From the NCBI GenBank assembly GCA_004366385.1, contig SIRU01000014.1, forward strand, positions 1-32,252: a stretch of 32,252 nt of DNA, read 5' to 3'. The DNA comes from Actinomycetota bacterium. GTDB taxonomy: Bacteria > Actinomycetota > Thermoleophilia > Gaiellales > Gaiellaceae. Shown here piece by piece: positions 2,889 to 26,837 of the stretch. The notes beneath the pieces were generated by a model. The model did no database searches. It worked only from the letters and a program-made list of their open reading frames with translations, and was not told where the DNA came from. Made by a program: the position numbers and the translations under genes. Numbering within the stretch: the first letter of the stretch is position 1; each line of letters starts with the position of its first letter.

Positions 2889-4144
2889 GTCTCCGCGACG
2901 GCCACGATCGCGGGCCCGAGCGGCTCCTGATCCGTGACCTCTCGCAGGTGGCGTCGCCAGCCGGGCGGGCGGCTCCCGTGCGCGGCCCGGCCCTCGGCGA
3001 GGTCGACGTCCTCGAGGAGGCGTACGTCCTGTGCGAGGGCGGTCGCGTGGCTCGAGTCGGGCCCATGCGCGAGCTCGGAGCGATCGAGGGCGACGTCGTC
3101 GAGCTCGACGGCCGCGGGCTCTCGGCCGTCCCCGGGCTGGTCGACTGCCACACGCATGCGTGCTTCGCGGGCGATCGCGTCGAGGAGTTCGCACTCCGCG
3201 CCGCCGGCGCGAGCTACGAGGAGCTCCACGCCGCGGGCGGAGGCATCCTCTCGACGGTGCGGGCGACGCGCGCCGCAGGCGAGGACGCCCTGCGCGCAGC
3301 AGTCGAGCGGCATGCCTCGTGGATGCTCCGCGCCGGCACGACGACGTTCGAGGCGAAGTCGGGCTACGGCCTCGATCGCGAGACCGAGCTCGCGCAGCTG
3401 CGCGCGATCCGTGCGGCGGGCGGCGTTCCCACTTGGCTCGGCGCGCACGCCGTGCCGCCCGAGCACGCCGACGCGGGAGCGGCCGCGTACGTCGACTTCC
3501 TCCTCGCAGAGGTGCTCGCTGAGGCGGCGGAGCTCGCCGAGGCCGCGGACGTCTTCCTCGAGCGCGGCGCGTTCGACGCCACGCAGGCGCGCAGGTACCT
3601 CGAGGGGTGCGCCGCCGCCGGCCTCGCGCTCCGGCTGCACGGCGACCAGTTCACGGAGGCAGGGGCGATCCCGCTGGCGATCGAGATCGGGGCCCGCTCC
3701 GTCGACCACCTCGAGGCAACGGGCCACGCGGGTGTCCTCGCGCTGGCCGCGAGCGACGTGGTCGGCGTGCTCCTTCCGGCCAGCGCCCTCTTTCTCGGCC
3801 GCCCGCTGCCTCCCGCGCGCGCGCTCGCCGACGCGGGCGCGGCGATCGCCCTCGCGACCGACTTCAACCCGGGGAGCGCCTACTGCGAGAGCCTTCCGGT
3901 CGTCCTCTCGCTCGCGTGCACCCAGCTCGGGCTCTCTCCGAACGAGGCGCTCGCCGCCTGCACGGTGAACGCTGCGCACGTCCTCGCGCGCGCCGACCGG
4001 AAAGGGCGCATCGCCCCCGGCTTCGATGCAGACGTCGTCCTGGTCGCCGCCGACGACTGGCGCCACCTTGCGTACCACCTCGCCGGGCCTGTGGTGCACA
4101 CCGTCGTCAGAGCCGGCCGAGTCGCCTGCAGCAGCCGGGCATAA
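2885..4144 (+). CDS. hutI: Imidazolonepropionase
   Basis: Third step of histidine degradation: a metal-dependent amidohydrolase opening 4-imidazolone-5-propionate to N-formimino-L-glutamate. From the GTG at 2885 the product is 419 residues, the normal family length. Signatures are the metal-binding HxH at residues 89 and 91 ([12 protein letters not shown]), [25 protein letters not shown], the DHLEATG segment, and [13 protein letters not shown] with the late catalytic Asp. The start is chosen because GTG overlaps the hutU stop as GTGA, as at most junctions here; the frame is open further upstream, but that stretch lies inside hutU and is a shadow. The fourth step (hutF or hutG type) is not in the window and may lie upstream of hutH. 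Confidence 0.96.
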
Positions 4145-4145
4145 T
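4140..4145 (+). promoter_or_regulatory. Candidate -10 element for the small membrane protein gene
   Basis: CATAAT sits six bases before the ATG at 4152 and contains the TAA stop of hutI. There is no Shine-Dalgarno sequence, which fits a leaderless transcript. No convincing -35 was seen. Confidence 0.4.
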
Positions 4146-4151
4146 CGCTGC

Positions 4152-4541
4152 ATGCCGACACGCAAGCAGCGTCGCCGCCGGGCGAAGGAGCTCCGCCACG
4201 AGTACGTCTGGGAGGACGAGGAGGGGAACGAGGTCGAGCCCGATGACGTCAAGGAGCGGAAGACCGGGATGCCGCCCTCGCGGGCGTCGGCCCGTGCCGG
4301 GCGTGAGCCCCAGCCGCCGTCGTGGCCGCGCACGCTGAAGCGGGGCGTGGTCTTCGCGCCGATCATGTTCGTGGTGGTGATGCTGCTCTCGAACGACCTC
4401 ACGCTCGTCCAGCAGCTCACGCAGACCGCCTTCATCGTCGCGATCTTCATCCCGTTCAGCTACCTCCTCGACGGCGTCATGTGGCGGTCGTACAAGCGGC
4501 GCGCGGCGCGGCGGGCGGCAGACGGCGGGCGCGGGAGCTGA
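4152..4541 (+). CDS. Small basic two-helix membrane protein, function unknown
   Basis: A 129-residue protein I do not recognise. It starts with a very basic stretch (MPTRKQRRRRAK), continues with an acidic and proline-rich soluble segment, then has two hydrophobic helices at about residues 65-81 and 91-109, and ends in a basic RRAARRAADGG tail. The predicted topology is two membrane spans with both ends on the cytoplasmic, positively charged side. The ATG at 4152 is preceded at six bases by CATAAT and lacks a ribosome binding site. It lies 7 bases after hutI and 2 bases before the metallo-beta-lactamase-fold gene, so it may be co-transcribed with the hydrolase-hisS-aspS group rather than belonging to histidine degradation. 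Coding status rests on high-GC codon usage and the clear membrane pattern. Confidence 0.75.
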   Translation: MPTRKQRRRRAKELRHEYVWEDEEGNEVEPDDVKERKTGMPPSRASARAGREPQPPSWPRTLKRGVVFAPIMFVVVMLLSNDLTLVQQLTQTAFIVAIFIPFSYLLDGVMWRSYKRRAARRAADGGRGS

Positions 4542-4543
4542 GC

Positions 4544-5191
4544 GTGCCCCTACGGGTCGACGCGCTCCCGCTCGGGCCGATCGGGACGAACTGCTACGTC
4601 GTGCGCGCGGACGCGCCCGCCGCCGAGGCAGTGGTCGTCGATCCGAGCGGTGCCGCCGCCGAGATCCGCATCGAGCTCGCGCGGCTCGGCACGCGGTGCG
4701 TCGCGATCCTCGTGACACACGGCCACTGGGATCACCTCGTCGGCGTGGGAGAGCTCGCGACCGGTACCGGCGCCCCCGTGCACATGCCCGAGGGCGAGCG
4801 CGTGCTGCTCGAGCAACCTGGGCCGTACGTCCCGGCCGGCATCGCGATGACCCCCCACACGCCCGACGTGCTGCTCTCGGGAGGCGAGTCCTTGGAGCTC
4901 GCGGGCATGACCTTCGACGTGCTCTCGGTTCCGGGCCACTCGCCCGCGCATCTCGCGTACGCGGCCGACGGCTGCCTGTTCTCGGGGGACGTCCTCTTCG
5001 CCGGCTCCGTGGGCAGGACCGACCTCCCGGGCGCCGACTGGGACACGCTCCTCGAGTCCATCCGGGCGCTCGTCGACGCCTATCCACCGGAGACCGTCGT
5101 CTACCCGGGCCACGGGCCCACGACGACACTCGGCGCCGAGCTCGCGCGCAACCCGTTCCTCGCCGACCTCCGCGCGGAGCGTACGCCGTGA
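4544..5191 (+). CDS. Metallo-beta-lactamase-fold hydrolase (glyoxalase II-like)
   Basis: A 215-residue cytoplasmic hydrolase of the metallo-beta-lactamase superfamily, most like hydroxyacylglutathione hydrolase-type proteins. The full metal site is present: THGHWDH (His59, His61, Asp63, His64), His132 in PGHSPAH, Asp149 in SGDVLF, and His190 in YPGHGP. The N-terminal LPLGPIGTNCYVV is typical of glyoxalase II-like members. The substrate cannot be deduced; actinobacteria use mycothiol rather than glutathione, so a thioester of another thiol is possible. The GTG at 4544 lies 2 bases after the previous stop, and the gene ends in a GTGA overlap with hisS. Association of such a hydrolase with hisS is recurrent in bacteria, but its reason is unknown. 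Confidence 0.92.
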   Translation: MPLRVDALPLGPIGTNCYVVRADAPAAEAVVVDPSGAAAEIRIELARLGTRCVAILVTHGHWDHLVGVGELATGTGAPVHMPEGERVLLEQPGPYVPAGIAMTPHTPDVLLSGGESLELAGMTFDVLSVPGHSPAHLAYAADGCLFSGDVLFAGSVGRTDLPGADWDTLLESIRALVDAYPPETVVYPGHGPTTTLGAELARNPFLADLRAERTP

Positions 5192-6441
5192 CGGCCACGA
5201 AGATCGAGCGGCCGCGTGGCACGCACGACGTCACGCCCTCGGAGCAGCCGCTCTGGCGCCTCGCGGTCGGCGAGGCGGAGCGGCTGTGCGCGCTGTACGG
5301 CTACCGCCCGATCACGACGCCCGTGTTCGAGGACACCGCGCTGTTCGAGCGCACCTCGGGTGCGGGCTCGGACGTCGTGCAGAAGGAGATGTACACGTTC
5401 GAGGACCGCGGCGGCCGCTCGCTCACGCTGCGCCCGGAGGCGACCGCGCCGATCTGTCGCGCCTACGTCGAGCACGGGATGCATCGCGGCCCGCAGCCCG
5501 CGAAGCTGTACACCGTCGCGCCGATGTACCGCTACGCGGCGCCCCAGCGGGGCCGCTACCGCGAGCACTGGCAGCTCTCCGTCGAGGCGGTCGGCTCCGA
5601 ACACCCGTCCGTCGATGCCGAGATCATCCAGCTCTACCACGCGCTCCTGCGCAGGCTCGGCGTGTCCGAGTTCTCACTCGAGATCAACTCGATCGGCTGC
5701 GCCGAGTGCCGGCCCGCCTACCTCGAGTCGCTCCGCGCGTGGCTCGCGGCCACCGACGCGCGCCTCGACGAGGCGACGCGCGAGAAGGCGGCCACCAGCC
5801 CGCTCCGGGTGTTCGACAACCTCGACACGAAGCCGGCCGGCGTCCAGGAGGCCCTGCGCGAGGCTCCGAAGATCGGCGGCTCGCTCTGCGACGCCTGCGA
5901 GGAGCACTTCGCGGCCGTCCGCCGCGATCTGGATGCCTACGGCGTCGAGTACACCGTCATGCCGACGCTGGTCCGCGGCCTCGACTACTACACCCGCACG
6001 ACGTGGGAGTTCGCCGGGCCCGAGGAGGGCGCCCAGAGCGCGCTCTCGGGCGGCGGCCGCTACGACGGCCTGGTCGAGGAGATCGGCGGGCCGCCGACGC
6101 CCGGCGTCGGCTTCGGCGCCGGCCTCGAGCGCCTGCTCATCGCGCTCGAGCACGCTGGCGTGACCGCGCCGCCGCCGGCGATCGACGTCTTCTTCGCACT
6201 CGCGGACGACACCTCCCGTGACCACGTGACCCGGCTCGTGGAGGCAGCCCGCTCTGCCGGCCTCGCCGCCGACACCGACTACGCCGGCCGCTCGCTCAAG
6301 GGTCAGCTGACCCAGGCGGGCAGGCTCGGCGCGGCGACGGTCGCAGTGGTCGACGCCGACCGCGCGACGCTCCGCCGGCCCGGGCGCGAGGACGAGGACG
6401 TCCCGCTCGACGCAGTCCTGGAGAGGCTGGCCACGTCGTGA
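5188..6441 (+). CDS. hisS: Histidine--tRNA ligase
   Basis: Class II aminoacyl-tRNA synthetase charging tRNA-His. The 417-residue product matches the family (about 420). Seen in order: RPRGTHDVTP near the N-terminus; motif 2 region MYRYAAPQRGRYREHWQ; the histidine-specific VRGLDYYTRTTWEF; SGGGRYDGLVEEIGG; motif 3 as GVGFGAGLERL; then a C-terminal anticodon-binding domain ending in DVPLDAVLERLATS. The GTG start overlaps the preceding hydrolase stop as GTGA, and the stop overlaps aspS the same way, so hydrolase-hisS-aspS is a coupled operon. The hisS-aspS pairing is common in bacteria. Confidence 0.97.
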   Translation: MTATKIERPRGTHDVTPSEQPLWRLAVGEAERLCALYGYRPITTPVFEDTALFERTSGAGSDVVQKEMYTFEDRGGRSLTLRPEATAPICRAYVEHGMHRGPQPAKLYTVAPMYRYAAPQRGRYREHWQLSVEAVGSEHPSVDAEIIQLYHALLRRLGVSEFSLEINSIGCAECRPAYLESLRAWLAATDARLDEATREKAATSPLRVFDNLDTKPAGVQEALREAPKIGGSLCDACEEHFAAVRRDLDAYGVEYTVMPTLVRGLDYYTRTTWEFAGPEEGAQSALSGGGRYDGLVEEIGGPPTPGVGFGAGLERLLIALEHAGVTAPPPAIDVFFALADDTSRDHVTRLVEAARSAGLAADTDYAGRSLKGQLTQAGRLGAATVAVVDADRATLRRPGREDEDVPLDAVLERLATS

Positions 6442-17256: not shown

Positions 17257-17538
17257 TTACGACCTCGGCTGGTGCTCGCCGAGCTTGTACTGCTGGTTGA
17301 GCGCCTCGCTCCGAATGCGCAGCGCGCGGAGCCACGGAGCCTCGTCCCCGAGCTGCGTCGCGCTCGTCTCGAACGCCGACACGCCGAGACCGTACTGCTC
17401 GTTGAGCGCCTGGCTGCGCGCCTCGAGCGCCTTCCTCCACCCGTCGCCGCCGCCGCCTCCGCTCACCGCCGCGCCCGAGCCGACCAGGGCGACGAGCGCA
17501 GAAGCTACGAGGATCGAGCCTTTGGTGCGAGCCTTCAT
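17257..17538 (-). CDS. Small secreted protein with a duplicated ALNxQYxLG motif
   Basis: A 93-residue protein not recognised by name. It has a classical signal peptide (basic MKARTKG, hydrophobic SILVASALVALVGSGAAVS), a Gly run, and then two copies of a motif of about 18 residues that fits W-x-(K/R)-A-L-x-x-R-S-x-A-L-N-x-Q-Y-x-L-G, separated by about 18 residues rich in Thr, Ala and Asp. The two copies share most positions, so an internal duplication is clear. The start is secure: ATG 17538 with AAGGAG six bases upstream. It is divergently transcribed from the SARP-propeller regulator and has its own inverted repeat in the leader and a hairpin terminator, so it is a single-gene unit. A role in the cell wall or signalling is possible; nothing shows an enzyme. 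Confidence 0.82.
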   Translation of the reverse strand: MKARTKGSILVASALVALVGSGAAVSGGGGGDGWRKALEARSQALNEQYGLGVSAFETSATQLGDEAPWLRALRIRSEALNQQYKLGEHQPRS

Positions 17539-17577: not shown

Positions 17578-17657
17578 GTTGGCTGCAGAGTCCTGGGGGC
17601 CGCTCACGAGGCGCCCATTTCCGGTAACGCGACGGTAATGGAGCATGCTTCGGCTCT

Positions 17658-19355
17658 GTGGCAGCCCATCCGACACGCATGGTGATTCGCATCCTCGGCC
17701 CGCTCGAGGTGTCGGACGGCGGTCGCATCGTCGAGCTGGGAGCAGGGCGACAGCGCGCGTTGCTCGCGCTTCTCGCATTGCACTCGCCCGAGATCGTCGC
17801 CACGGATCGTCTGATCGAGGAGCTCTGGGGTGGCTCGCCCCCGCCGACCGCTGCGAAGGCCCTCCAGAACCTCGTCTCGCAGCTTCGACGTTCACTCGGC
17901 GCGGATGCGATCGCAACGAGACCTCCCGGCTACGGCCTTCGGCTCGACGCCGACGACCTCGACGCCAGGCGGTTCGAGCGCCTCGCAGCAGAAGCCCATC
18001 GTCTGCTCCAGGAGGATCCCGGCCGAGCCGGGCAGACGCTCCGCGAGGCGCTCGGGTTGTGGCGAGGACGCGCGCTCGCCGACTTCGCCTACGAGGACTT
18101 CGCACAGAGCGAGATCGCGCGACTCGAAGAGCTCCGGCTCGGAGCGATCGAGGATCGGGTCGACGCGGACCTGGCACTGGGTCGAGCGGCCAAGCTCGTT
18201 CCCGAGCTCGAGCCGCTCGTGTCGGCGCATCCGCTACGCGGGCGGCTGCGAGGCCAGCTCATGCTCGCGCTGTACCGGAGCGGCCGCCAGGCGGACGCCC
18301 TCGACGTCTACCGCTCGGGCCGGCGGTTGCTGGACGAGGAGCTCGGGCTCGAGCCGGACAACGAGCTCCAACGCCTCGAGAAAGCCATCCTCAACCACGA
18401 TCCGTCGCTCGAGTCACCGGTCGCCGCCGAGGTCGAACGACCCTCTGTCGGGAAGCGTCGCGGAGCGTCGTCGCGGGCTCGACCGGTTCCTCCCGACTCG
18501 GTCGCCGTGATCGACGAGCAACGCTCCCGGGTCGTGGGCCACGTGCTCGTGGGCAGAAGGCCCGTCGCCCTCGCGATCGGGCACGGCTCGGTGTGGGTCG
18601 CCAACGCAGACGATGGAACGGTCTCTCGCATCCAACCGGATCGCGGCGAAGTCGTGAGGACGATTGGGATCGGAGCGCCGGCGATAGACCTCGCTGTCAC
18701 CAGCGATGCGGTCTGGGTGGCGAACGGAAGCGACGGAACACTCTCGCGCATCGATCCCAGCGCCGACGCGGTCGTCGAGACGATCGACCTGAGGGGCTCG
18801 AGCGAGATCGCGTGGAACACGACCTACGCGGTCGACGCCGACGACGAGTCCGTCTGGATCGGCTCGGGCACTCATCACGTGCTCCGCATCGACCCGGCGA
18901 CGAACGAGCCCGTCGCGACCATCGACGTCGGCCGTGTGCCGGTAGGCGTGGCACTCGGCGAGGAGGCACTCTGGGTGGTGACGATCGCCGAACGGGCCCT
19001 GCGCATTGAGCCTCGCACGAACGAAGTCACGACCGAGGTGCCGATCGGGTACCCCGTCGCCGTGACGGCCGGAAAGCAGGCTGTCTGGGTCTCCGACGCG
19101 CAAGGCCAGGTCTGGCGCATCAACCCGGACACCGGAACGGTGTCCCAGACGACCCCGGTCGGCTATGGGCTCGTGGGTCTGTGCGCGACGGAGAGAGCGG
19201 TGTTCGCAGCCAGCAACGCCGACGGCACCGTCGTCCACATCGATCCGCAGGACGGCCGTGTTGCAGGCGTCATCCCGGTCGGCCACGCGCCGACCGACGT
19301 GGCCTCCCGTGACGGGACCATCTGGGTTGCGGTACAGAGCGAGAGCGCTATGTGA
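17658..19355 (+). CDS. SARP/BTAD-type regulator with a C-terminal seven-bladed beta-propeller
   Basis: A 565-residue protein. Residues about 10-100 form an OmpR/SARP winged-helix DNA-binding domain (IRILGPLEVSDGGRIVELG, then RQRALLALLALHS and NLVSQLRRSLG). Residues about 105-250 form the bacterial transcriptional activation (BTAD) helical domain, ending AILNHDPSL. After a basic linker, residues about 285-565 carry repeated VWVAN-, VWIGS- or LWVVT-type strands with DG turns and RIDP or RINP segments, giving seven blades of a YVTN/Vgb-like propeller. No transmembrane segment is seen, so it is probably a cytoplasmic one-component regulator whose propeller senses a ligand or partner. The start is GTG 17658, with ATG 17679 as an alternative. 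Its 3' end overlaps the convergent BMP-type gene by eight bases. The target genes are unknown; the divergent secreted protein is a candidate. Confidence 0.9.
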   Translation: MAAHPTRMVIRILGPLEVSDGGRIVELGAGRQRALLALLALHSPEIVATDRLIEELWGGSPPPTAAKALQNLVSQLRRSLGADAIATRPPGYGLRLDADDLDARRFERLAAEAHRLLQEDPGRAGQTLREALGLWRGRALADFAYEDFAQSEIARLEELRLGAIEDRVDADLALGRAAKLVPELEPLVSAHPLRGRLRGQLMLALYRSGRQADALDVYRSGRRLLDEELGLEPDNELQRLEKAILNHDPSLESPVAAEVERPSVGKRRGASSRARPVPPDSVAVIDEQRSRVVGHVLVGRRPVALAIGHGSVWVANADDGTVSRIQPDRGEVVRTIGIGAPAIDLAVTSDAVWVANGSDGTLSRIDPSADAVVETIDLRGSSEIAWNTTYAVDADDESVWIGSGTHHVLRIDPATNEPVATIDVGRVPVGVALGEEALWVVTIAERALRIEPRTNEVTTEVPIGYPVAVTAGKQAVWVSDAQGQVWRINPDTGTVSQTTPVGYGLVGLCATERAVFAASNADGTVVHIDPQDGRVAGVIPVGHAPTDVASRDGTIWVAVQSESAM

Positions 19356-20307
19356 CCGAGCTGGCGATCGGGATCTTCCCGGCGACGATCTCGGCCCTGA
19401 CGTCCTCGATCTCGGCCTCGAGCGCGCGGGGCACCGCCGCGCTGATCGTGCCGAGGCCGACACCGCCGTTCCGGAGAGAGAAGCGGGAAGTTCGACCGGT
19501 CTCGAGTGTCCCGCGCACGAGCTCTTCGATCGTGTCGAACACGGCCACGTCCAGCCTCTTGACCGCGCTCGTCAGGACGTGCCGGCCGAGGTCTGATTGA
19601 TCGACATCGACTCCGATCCCCCAGACTCCACGCTCTCTCGCGGCCTCCAGCGCCCCGAGCCCGCAACTGCTGGCGACCTGGAAGACGACTCGCGATCCCT
19701 TCGCGATCTGGCTCAGGGCGACCGACCTGCCTTTCACGGGGTCGATGAAGTCGTCGGTGTACGCGTTCAACGTCGTGACGCGGGGGTTGGCCTCTCTCGC
19801 ACCTGCCTGGTAGCCGGCGATGTACCTCTCGACAGCAGGTACCCGCTGGCCGCCGACCGAGCTGATCACCTCCTCTCCGGGAGAGAGCGTCAGCACGCGG
19901 GCGGCCAGGTGACCGGCCAGATAGCCGGCTTGCTCTTCGCTAAACACGAGGCCCAGGACGTTCTTCGGGCGATGCGCCAGGTCGTCGTGGGCGACGTCGA
20001 TGATCGCGAACCGCGTCTCGGGATACCCGGTTGCGACTCTGTCGATCGCGCGGGCGCCGAAGAAGTCTGGGGTTGCCCCGGGGGCCAGCTCGGCGCCGTT
20101 GTTTCCGATGACGAGGTCGTACTTCTGTCGCGCGAGAAGCGAGAGGCTCGGGACGTAGCCTTCTTTCGGGGCGGGTGTCAGTACCCGCCCTCTGACTCCC
20201 AGCTCTCGGACGGCCCGCTCGAGCCCGAGGTAGGCGCCGCGGTAGTACGGGCTGTCGATGCCTGTCGGCTCGATGACGAGCCCGACTCTCAGGCGCCTGT
20301 CGCTCAC
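19348..20307 (-). CDS. BMP/PnrA-family ligand-binding protein without a signal peptide
   Basis: A 319-residue protein of the basic membrane protein (PnrA-like) periplasmic-binding family, which usually binds nucleosides for ABC transporters. Visible features are VGLVIEPTGIDSPYYRGAYLG at the N-terminus, LGLVFSEEQAGYLAGHLAA, GGQRVPAVERYIAGYQAGAR, VVFQVASSCGLGALEAA, IGVDVDQSD and TSAVKRLDVAVFD. Unlike transport components it begins at MSDRRLRVG with no signal peptide or lipobox, and no ABC ATPase or permease gene lies nearby. It may therefore act as a cytoplasmic ligand sensor. It converges with the SARP-propeller regulator, overlapping by eight bases. GTG 20307 is favoured because GAGAAT lies six bases upstream; an upstream export signal was not found in the frame. 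Confidence 0.88.
   Translation of the reverse strand: MSDRRLRVGLVIEPTGIDSPYYRGAYLGLERAVRELGVRGRVLTPAPKEGYVPSLSLLARQKYDLVIGNNGAELAPGATPDFFGARAIDRVATGYPETRFAIIDVAHDDLAHRPKNVLGLVFSEEQAGYLAGHLAARVLTLSPGEEVISSVGGQRVPAVERYIAGYQAGAREANPRVTTLNAYTDDFIDPVKGRSVALSQIAKGSRVVFQVASSCGLGALEAARERGVWGIGVDVDQSDLGRHVLTSAVKRLDVAVFDTIEELVRGTLETGRTSRFSLRNGGVGLGTISAAVPRALEAEIEDVRAEIVAGKIPIASSVT

Positions 20308-23977: not shown

Positions 23978-23981
<4 letters not shown>
23079..23981 (-). CDS. XdhC/CoxF-family maturation protein fused to a C-terminal YHS domain
   Basis: A 300-residue protein. Residues 1 to about 240 are an XdhC-family factor that handles sulfurated molybdenum cofactor for insertion into CO dehydrogenase or xanthine dehydrogenase: FALATVVRVERPASTRRGDR, VRGWIGGACSEPIVVREA with Cys57, a Rossmann-like VVGSSPAAVTLAKLA, and GAGYIGLVASSKRA. 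Residues about 248-294 form a YHS domain: DPVCGM (Cys253), then YYFCHAGCRERFEADPAAYL (Cys276, Cys280). YHS domains occur in metal-handling proteins, often copper-related. The GTG start overlaps the coxL stop as GTGA, so the two are coupled. A fused YHS domain in an operon for a Mo-Cu enzyme suggests, but does not prove, a part in metal delivery. Confidence 0.92.
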
Positions 23982-26326
<2,345 letters not shown>

Positions 26327-26327
26327 C

Positions 26328-26825
26328 TCAGCTCCCTTCCTTCATCGCGGCCGCGGCGTGGTGAACTGCCTTGACGATGTTCTGGTAGCCGGTGCAGCGG
26401 CAGACGTTCCCCGAGATCGCCCACCGGATCTCCTCGTCGGTCGGGCTCGGGCTCTGCTCGAGGAGCGCGATCGAGGTCAGCATCATCCCCGGCGTGCAGA
26501 ACCCGCACTGGAGCCCGTGCTCCGCGGAGAACGCCTCCTGGATCGGTGGCGGGCCGCCGGCTCCCTCGAGGCCCTCGACGGTCGTGAGCTCGCGGCCCTC
26601 GGCCTGGACCGCGAACATCGTGCAGGACTTCATCGGCGTCCCGTCCACGAGGACGGTGCACGCGCCGCAGCTCGTGGTGTCGCAGCCGACGTGCGTGCCG
26701 GTGAGCCCGAGCGTCTCGCGGAGGAAGTGCACGAGCAGCAGCCGCGTCTCCACCTCTTCCGCGCGCTCTTGGCCGTTGACGGTGACCGTCAGCGGCGTCG
26801 TGACGACGGCTTCCTGGACTGCCAT
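26328..26825 (-). CDS. coxS: Aerobic CO dehydrogenase small iron-sulfur subunit
   Basis: Electron-transfer subunit with two [2Fe-2S] clusters. The N-terminal plant-type ferredoxin cluster uses Cys48, Cys53, Cys56 and Cys68 (GCDTTSCGACTVLVDG and MKSC); the second cluster uses Cys107, Cys110, Cys142 and Cys144 (QCGFCTPGM and GNVCRCTGYQNIV). At 165 residues it matches family length. ATG 26825 has a strong GGAGGGG ribosome binding site in the 12-base gap after coxM, in contrast to the leaderless genes elsewhere. It is followed by coxL after one base. It moves electrons from the Mo-Cu site of CoxL to FAD in CoxM. Confidence 0.96.
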   Translation of the reverse strand: MAVQEAVVTTPLTVTVNGQERAEEVETRLLLVHFLRETLGLTGTHVGCDTTSCGACTVLVDGTPMKSCTMFAVQAEGRELTTVEGLEGAGGPPPIQEAFSAEHGLQCGFCTPGMMLTSIALLEQSPSPTDEEIRWAISGNVCRCTGYQNIVKAVHHAAAAMKEGS

Positions 26826-26837
26826 GACCCCTCCTCT

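Follow-up and report, generated by a model that had tools for sequence, protein, structure and literature searches.

SARPs are major antibiotic-pathway activators of actinobacteria, and the signals that the larger ones respond to are mostly unknown. Among sensor systems, the LuxP-LuxQ type relies on a binding protein that reports to a receptor, and in the ToxR/CadC type a single membrane helix anchors a winged helix-turn-helix (wHTH) domain beneath an external sensor. A review of SARPs (PMC10972967) contains no propeller or membrane-bound class, the terms 'WD40' and 'transmembrane' being absent from its text, and no relevant papers on SARPs or BTAD proteins linked to a propeller, a membrane helix or a binding protein were found in the open-access literature. 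Among binding proteins, Med is a PnrA-like activator of comK in Bacillus and provides a regulatory precedent for the BMP fold (PMC12892991); going only by the title of a paper cited there, Med is located at the cell surface.

The window considered here is the whole analysed stretch of 32,252 nucleotides from a Gaiellaceae genome of 2.7 Mb (class Thermoleophilia), which belongs to a group of soil bacteria that has received little study. Its genes include a molybdenum hydroxylase large subunit (23981-26341, reverse strand) with an AYRCSFR motif, which we take to be the form I CO dehydrogenase motif, and the 2Fe-2S subunit belonging to it (26331-26837, reverse strand). The subject of this analysis is a convergent pair in the same window, a SARP-type regulator (REG) and a PnrA-like binding protein (BMP). 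AfsR, EmbR and the SARP-LAL regulator PimR are like REG in combining wHTH and BTAD domains with an extra sensory C-terminus and in having 11-bp direct repeats upstream, whereas their C-termini are of the NOD/TPR, FHA or LAL type and REG ends in a propeller that is coupled to a binding protein. T. pallidum PnrA (2fqw), C. thermocellum Lbp (7x0r) and mycoplasma P48 have the same fold as BMP (TM about 0.8) and share with it the C-lobe pocket residues D104, F209, D234 and K250. In contrast to the PnrA/BMP proteins of ABC transporters, BMP has no signal peptide, no ABC partner and an altered N-lobe, and is linked to a regulator. Med (2hqb) and BMP would be alike in using this fold in a regulatory role, which for BMP is a proposal, and we know of no SARP-propeller partner for Med. 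Compared with LuxP-LuxQ and ToxR/CadC, the REG-BMP pair has no kinase, a SARP output and a propeller as the proposed docking platform, and the version in the window is predicted to be entirely cytoplasmic. We are largely confident that REG and BMP are functional partners. With moderate confidence, we further propose that they form a two-part chemosensor based on docking, of which the docking, the ligand switching, the ligand and the targets are all inferred.

The regulator and its convergent neighbour

The REG open reading frame (17658-19355, forward strand) gives 565 residues from a GTG at 17658, which the earlier note took as the start; alignment with relatives makes an ATG at 17679 likelier, and the gene is therefore placed at 17679..19355. 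Pfam matches to Trans_reg_C (3e-8), BTAD (9e-47) and propeller repeats, together with a fold match to AfsR (TMt 0.91), meet the definition of a SARP, namely an N-terminal OmpR-type wHTH followed by BTAD. This DNA-binding and BTAD half (residues about 8-251; 17679..18410, forward strand), delimited by Pfam, AlphaFold and fold match, is 42% identical to AfsR in a structural alignment. In the AlphaFold model (pLDDT 90, pTM 0.54), a floppy linker is followed by 28 propeller strands, equal to seven blades, and the fold is closest to those of AfsR, a YVTN propeller, EmbR and YncE. The YVTN/YncE-like propeller (residues about 281-561; 18498..19340, forward strand) is supported by Pfam, AlphaFold and identity profiles and constitutes the REG half of the sensor cassette discussed below. 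No membrane helix was found in REG of the window by hydropathy, the highest 19-residue value being 1.33 and that of the linker 1.05.

BMP is encoded on the reverse strand (19348-20307) and comprises 319 residues from a GTG start. PF02608 (Bmp) covers residues 7-315 (8e-48), and the matches of the structure model (pLDDT 93.5) are Lbp with bound guanosine, PnrA, BmpD and 2hqb, a Med-like comK activator, so the PnrA/BMP fold is supported by Pfam, model and fold match. Transport-type members are exported proteins or lipoproteins, and BMP does not qualify as one: it has no hydrophobic N-terminus and no signal peptide, and only 26 in-frame codons, none of them hydrophobic, lie upstream of the GTG. 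Nor is there an ABC ATPase or permease gene beside the pair as transport-type proteins would require; two other BMPs of this genome adjoin an ABC ATPase on contig C30. The stop-codon ends of the two genes overlap by 8 bases on opposite strands. The locus had been described from its letters alone as a DNA-binding and BTAD regulator with a seven-bladed propeller and no membrane segment, overlapping by 8 bases with a convergent BMP-type protein that lacks a signal peptide and an ABC transporter partner. Pfam, AlphaFold, hydropathy and the ORF coordinates bear out this description in each of these respects, with no export signal upstream of the BMP start and no ABC gene adjoining the pair.

The pocket residues of the fold were taken from a published list (PMC12892991) and mapped by alignment; the length of the N-terminal loop differs, and exact equivalence is uncertain. 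The N-lobe D-F-N residues of the nucleoside pocket (D18, F21, N22) are kept in 27/27 unpaired BMPs of alignment A3, whereas the BMPs paired with a REG differ at these positions (D18, Y21, Y22 in the window) and keep D104, F209, D234 and K250 of the C-lobe. The altered N-lobe weakens the nucleoside guess of the earlier note. As far as can be inferred from sequence, the ligand of paired BMPs is probably different or modified and unlikely to be an ordinary nucleoside.

Conservation and compartment of the pair

A search of 103 family genomes and 399 class genomes showed that, class-wide, one set of eight genomes (G000, which is that of the window, G036, G051, G093, G097, G087, G031 and G035) supplies both the eight top-scoring REG relatives and the eight top-scoring BMP relatives, with the genes convergent and tail-to-tail in each. 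Seven of the eight paired REGs score at least 843 bits, compared with 592 for the best unpaired REG and 524, over the 3' part, for the REG of G097. The lower scores of this frameshift-split REG and of the G031 BMP, which is cut by a contig end, are due only to their being partial. Frameshifts also occur in the REG of G035, and a stop in the BMP of G087, all these genomes being MAGs. Elsewhere in the family, most BMPs either lie next to an ABC ATPase gene or are standalone exported proteins. In a BMP tree of 124 rows, a single change accounts for the label 'paired' in the nine paired BMPs (support 71/52, and 98/91 in a seven-row core), and a single origin of paired BMPs is not excluded. Purifying selection acts on both genes (dN/dS about 0.22 in BMP and 0.3 in the propeller) and the pairing recurs in eight genomes, which places the arrangement beyond chance. 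The conserved adjacency that the earlier note named as a check of its idea is thus present.

Several loci vary the arrangement. In G093 (L130, C38, 1920-4132), two tandem BMP genes lie behind the converging REG and represent a duplicated paired BMP. In G015 (L362, C61:8000-14500, 4160-4342 and 5891-6220), such a pair survives only as a remnant, with one decayed fragment from a REG and another from a window-like BMP, the latter 82% identical over 38 residues. In G087 (L220, C143, 4952-7176), two BPD_transp_2 permease genes adjoin the pair, possibly as a target operon or as ancestral context.

The gene ends also permit an explanation at the RNA level, by which the convergent transcripts interfere and the proteins are otherwise unrelated. 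No clear terminator was seen between REG and BMP, and the overlap of 8 bp in the window branch increases to about 17 bp in G093, G097 and G087. However, its length varies, with a 2-bp gap in G031, and transcript interference leaves unexplained the protein fusions and matched compartments described below, so that we give it very little credence.

Compartment was judged by hydropathy, without trained predictors. A hydrophobic 19-residue segment between BTAD and propeller (2.07-2.96) is present in every inspected BTAD-propeller relative, paired or unpaired, except the window, G036 and G051, where the linker reaches only 0.8-1.1; one relative with unknown residues gave 1.66. A single membrane helix between the DNA-binding and sensor parts is accordingly absent from these three and present in the other relatives inspected. 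Likewise, BMPs with a complete readable N-terminus are hydrophobic there, with the same three exceptions (that of locus L240 was unreadable in frame). The five distant pairs thus combine a REG with a membrane helix and a BMP that is exported where readable (G093, G097, G035), and the three soluble pairs have neither helix nor signal peptide. These three probably represent one evolutionary event, and their joint loss of both features is therefore a single observation. The ancestor apparently was a membrane receptor whose BMP partner was exported, and the cytoplasmic version would be derived from it.

Truncation could also have removed the helix and the signal peptide and left the soluble branch a broken relic of non-working proteins, as the decayed remnant in G015 and the missing membrane anchor of the divergent protein in the window (see below) might suggest. 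Yet three intact copies of the soluble pair exist, whose DNA is about 80% identical and whose dN/dS is near 0.2-0.3; the frames and the C-lobe pocket are intact and the fold is confident, which makes decay highly improbable.

Fusions to binding proteins and a probable propeller-BMP cassette

The genome of the window itself encodes a BTAD domain, a membrane helix, a propeller and an SBP_bac_5 domain on one chain (L122, G000:C58:12000-22000, 3152-6085). The same one-chain order is found at L264, L352, L354 and L360, and with Peripla_BP_6 as the last domain at L272, L273 and L351. Binding proteins also occur beside such regulators as separate genes: at L345 (G049) a BTAD-helix-propeller gene is tail-to-tail with an exported SBP_bac_5 protein, and at L277 (G011) such a gene has a divergent exported Peripla_BP_4 neighbour. 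Together with the BMP pairs, these loci indicate that regulators of this type have repeatedly become associated with binding proteins, of which four families are involved. A single chain of BTAD, propeller and BMP was not found in the 103 family and 399 class genomes. The one-chain relatives mentioned in the earlier note therefore exist with SBP_bac_5 or Peripla_BP_6, but not with a BMP domain. Long BMP frames in G284, G182, G214 and G267 were ruled out as REG fusions by the absence of any REG match inside, and frames at L034, L062 and L032 proved to be other fusions, extended frames or tandem BMPs. The frame at L034 (5854-9165), from Anaerolineae, joins a BMP domain to GH32-like and beta-helix regions.

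Many BTAD-helix-propeller regulators have no adjacent binding protein, and a partner may thus not be obligatory. This observation, and the G087 pair adjoining two BPD_transp_2 permeases of the type that serves BMP transporters, would be compatible with REG and BMP being linked and co-inherited without contact, BMP serving to buffer or salvage a metabolite of a REG-controlled pathway. We regard the absence of contact as unlikely: the propeller is indicated as the partner by one-chain fusions of the same kinds of parts, by the shared lack of helix and signal peptide, and by a cassette border that lies inside REG near the propeller.

This border, on which the docking proposal also draws, emerges from comparison of the window, G036 and G051. 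Over most of the DNA-binding and BTAD half, third codon positions are about 45-55% identical; the value is about 75-80% from REG codon 200-245 on and 60-87% through BMP. At the protein level, the DNA-binding and BTAD half is 57-73% identical, the propeller 80-83% and BMP 84-85%. Across the compared genome pairs, propeller identity tracks BMP identity with r of 0.99, compared with 0.47 for the wHTH and 0.55 for BTAD, although genome pairs are non-independent. Because synonymous similarity rises abruptly where BTAD meets the propeller and continues through BMP, propeller and BMP look like one exchangeable cassette, and the simplest reading of these profiles is that it has been exchanged between SARP halves. 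Given the tail-to-tail arrangement, the two outer ends of this cassette would be where the membrane helix and the signal peptide lie. A one-step switch from receptor to cytoplasm, in which the cassette lost both of these ends and was placed behind new SARP halves, is conceivable and is offered only tentatively.

The DNA common to the soluble loci stops at the BMP start codon, and the flanking genes differ in all three, for which reason conserved flanking genes were rejected as REG targets. The same differing flanks, with common DNA ending at the pair, might mean that the two genes have no joint function and stay together only as a mobile segment that was recently transferred. Such an origin has little to commend it: distant pairs are old, with BMPs only about 40-49% identical to that of the window and still tail-to-tail, and the apparent recombination border falls inside REG and spares propeller and BMP.

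Candidate operator and proposed sensing

According to published work, SARPs recognise direct repeats with a spacing of 11 or 22 bp (PMC10936776), and PimR uses the heptamer CGGCAAG (PMC5930380). By this rule, a candidate SARP operator lies at 17622..17638 on the forward strand (CGGTAACGCGACGGTAA), comprising two CGGTAA repeats spaced 11 bp, for which there are no binding data. The motif [ACG][CG]TA[AG] is repeated at exactly 11 bp upstream of 7/7 testable paired REGs; other spacings from 6 to 20 are absent upstream of all seven, and 0.2-0.5% of control windows contain an 11-bp repeat. The motif was chosen after inspecting the sequences and counts as support, not as a test. The exact form CGGTAAN5CGGTAA has only three sites in the genome, too few to define a regulon, and it was discarded as a genome-wide target finder. 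Besides 17622-17638, these are a site on C39 (L372, near 1501-1517) upstream of another SARP (BTAD followed by an ATP-binding region), which likewise faces a divergent exported protein, and a site on C61 about 200 nt upstream of an rpoD-type gene. A sigma-70 promoter scan around the pair gave no match.

Divergent to REG, 17257..17538 (reverse strand) encodes a small exported protein of 93 residues with a signal peptide and two RSxALNxQYxLG motifs, without a Pfam match. Members of this family are found repeatedly beside SARP-propeller genes, and most have an FDWGDxGIGA membrane anchor at the C-terminus. An FDWGD-type anchor terminates the counterparts in G036, G051, G097 and G087, as well as those at the regulators L351, L353 and L327, but is missing from the window protein. 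Its gene is a candidate target of REG, an assignment that is inferred.

In the proposed sensor, BMP, a Venus-flytrap protein, would bind a small ligand and in one state dock on the REG propeller. Docking would control binding of the SARP half to the 11-bp direct repeats, where REG, like other SARPs, may recruit RNA polymerase and engage sigma region 4 (no transcription data) and so set its own expression and possibly that of the divergent exported protein. In the wider family, the same design would operate across the membrane, with the SARP half inside, one helix, and the propeller and binding protein outside, the latter fused (SBP_bac_5, Peripla_BP_6) or separately exported and encoded tail-to-tail. 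If docking holds, the window branch, without helix and signal peptide, would sense an intracellular ligand. We lean towards direct docking with ligand-dependent control, which is inferred in the absence of contact, ligand or DNA-binding data. What the sequences themselves establish are the domains, the conserved pairing, the combined lack of helix and signal peptide, the cassette-like divergence and the 11-bp repeats. The earlier suggestion of an intracellular ligand sensor that works with the regulator is supported, since the linkage proved to be conserved and the BMP start to have no export signal ahead of it, so that neither of the two outcomes named as contradicting it was obtained; its nucleoside component has lost ground, and the cytoplasmic form seems derived.

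The series of SARPs in which a propeller is combined with a solute-binding protein, on one chain or in trans, suggests that such regulators may read ligands bound by Venus-flytrap proteins. The soluble branch, in which both partners are without a membrane or export signal, represents a natural experiment on the partnership. Further, the cassette suggests exchange of sensor modules between regulators and could help to build ligand-responsive activators.
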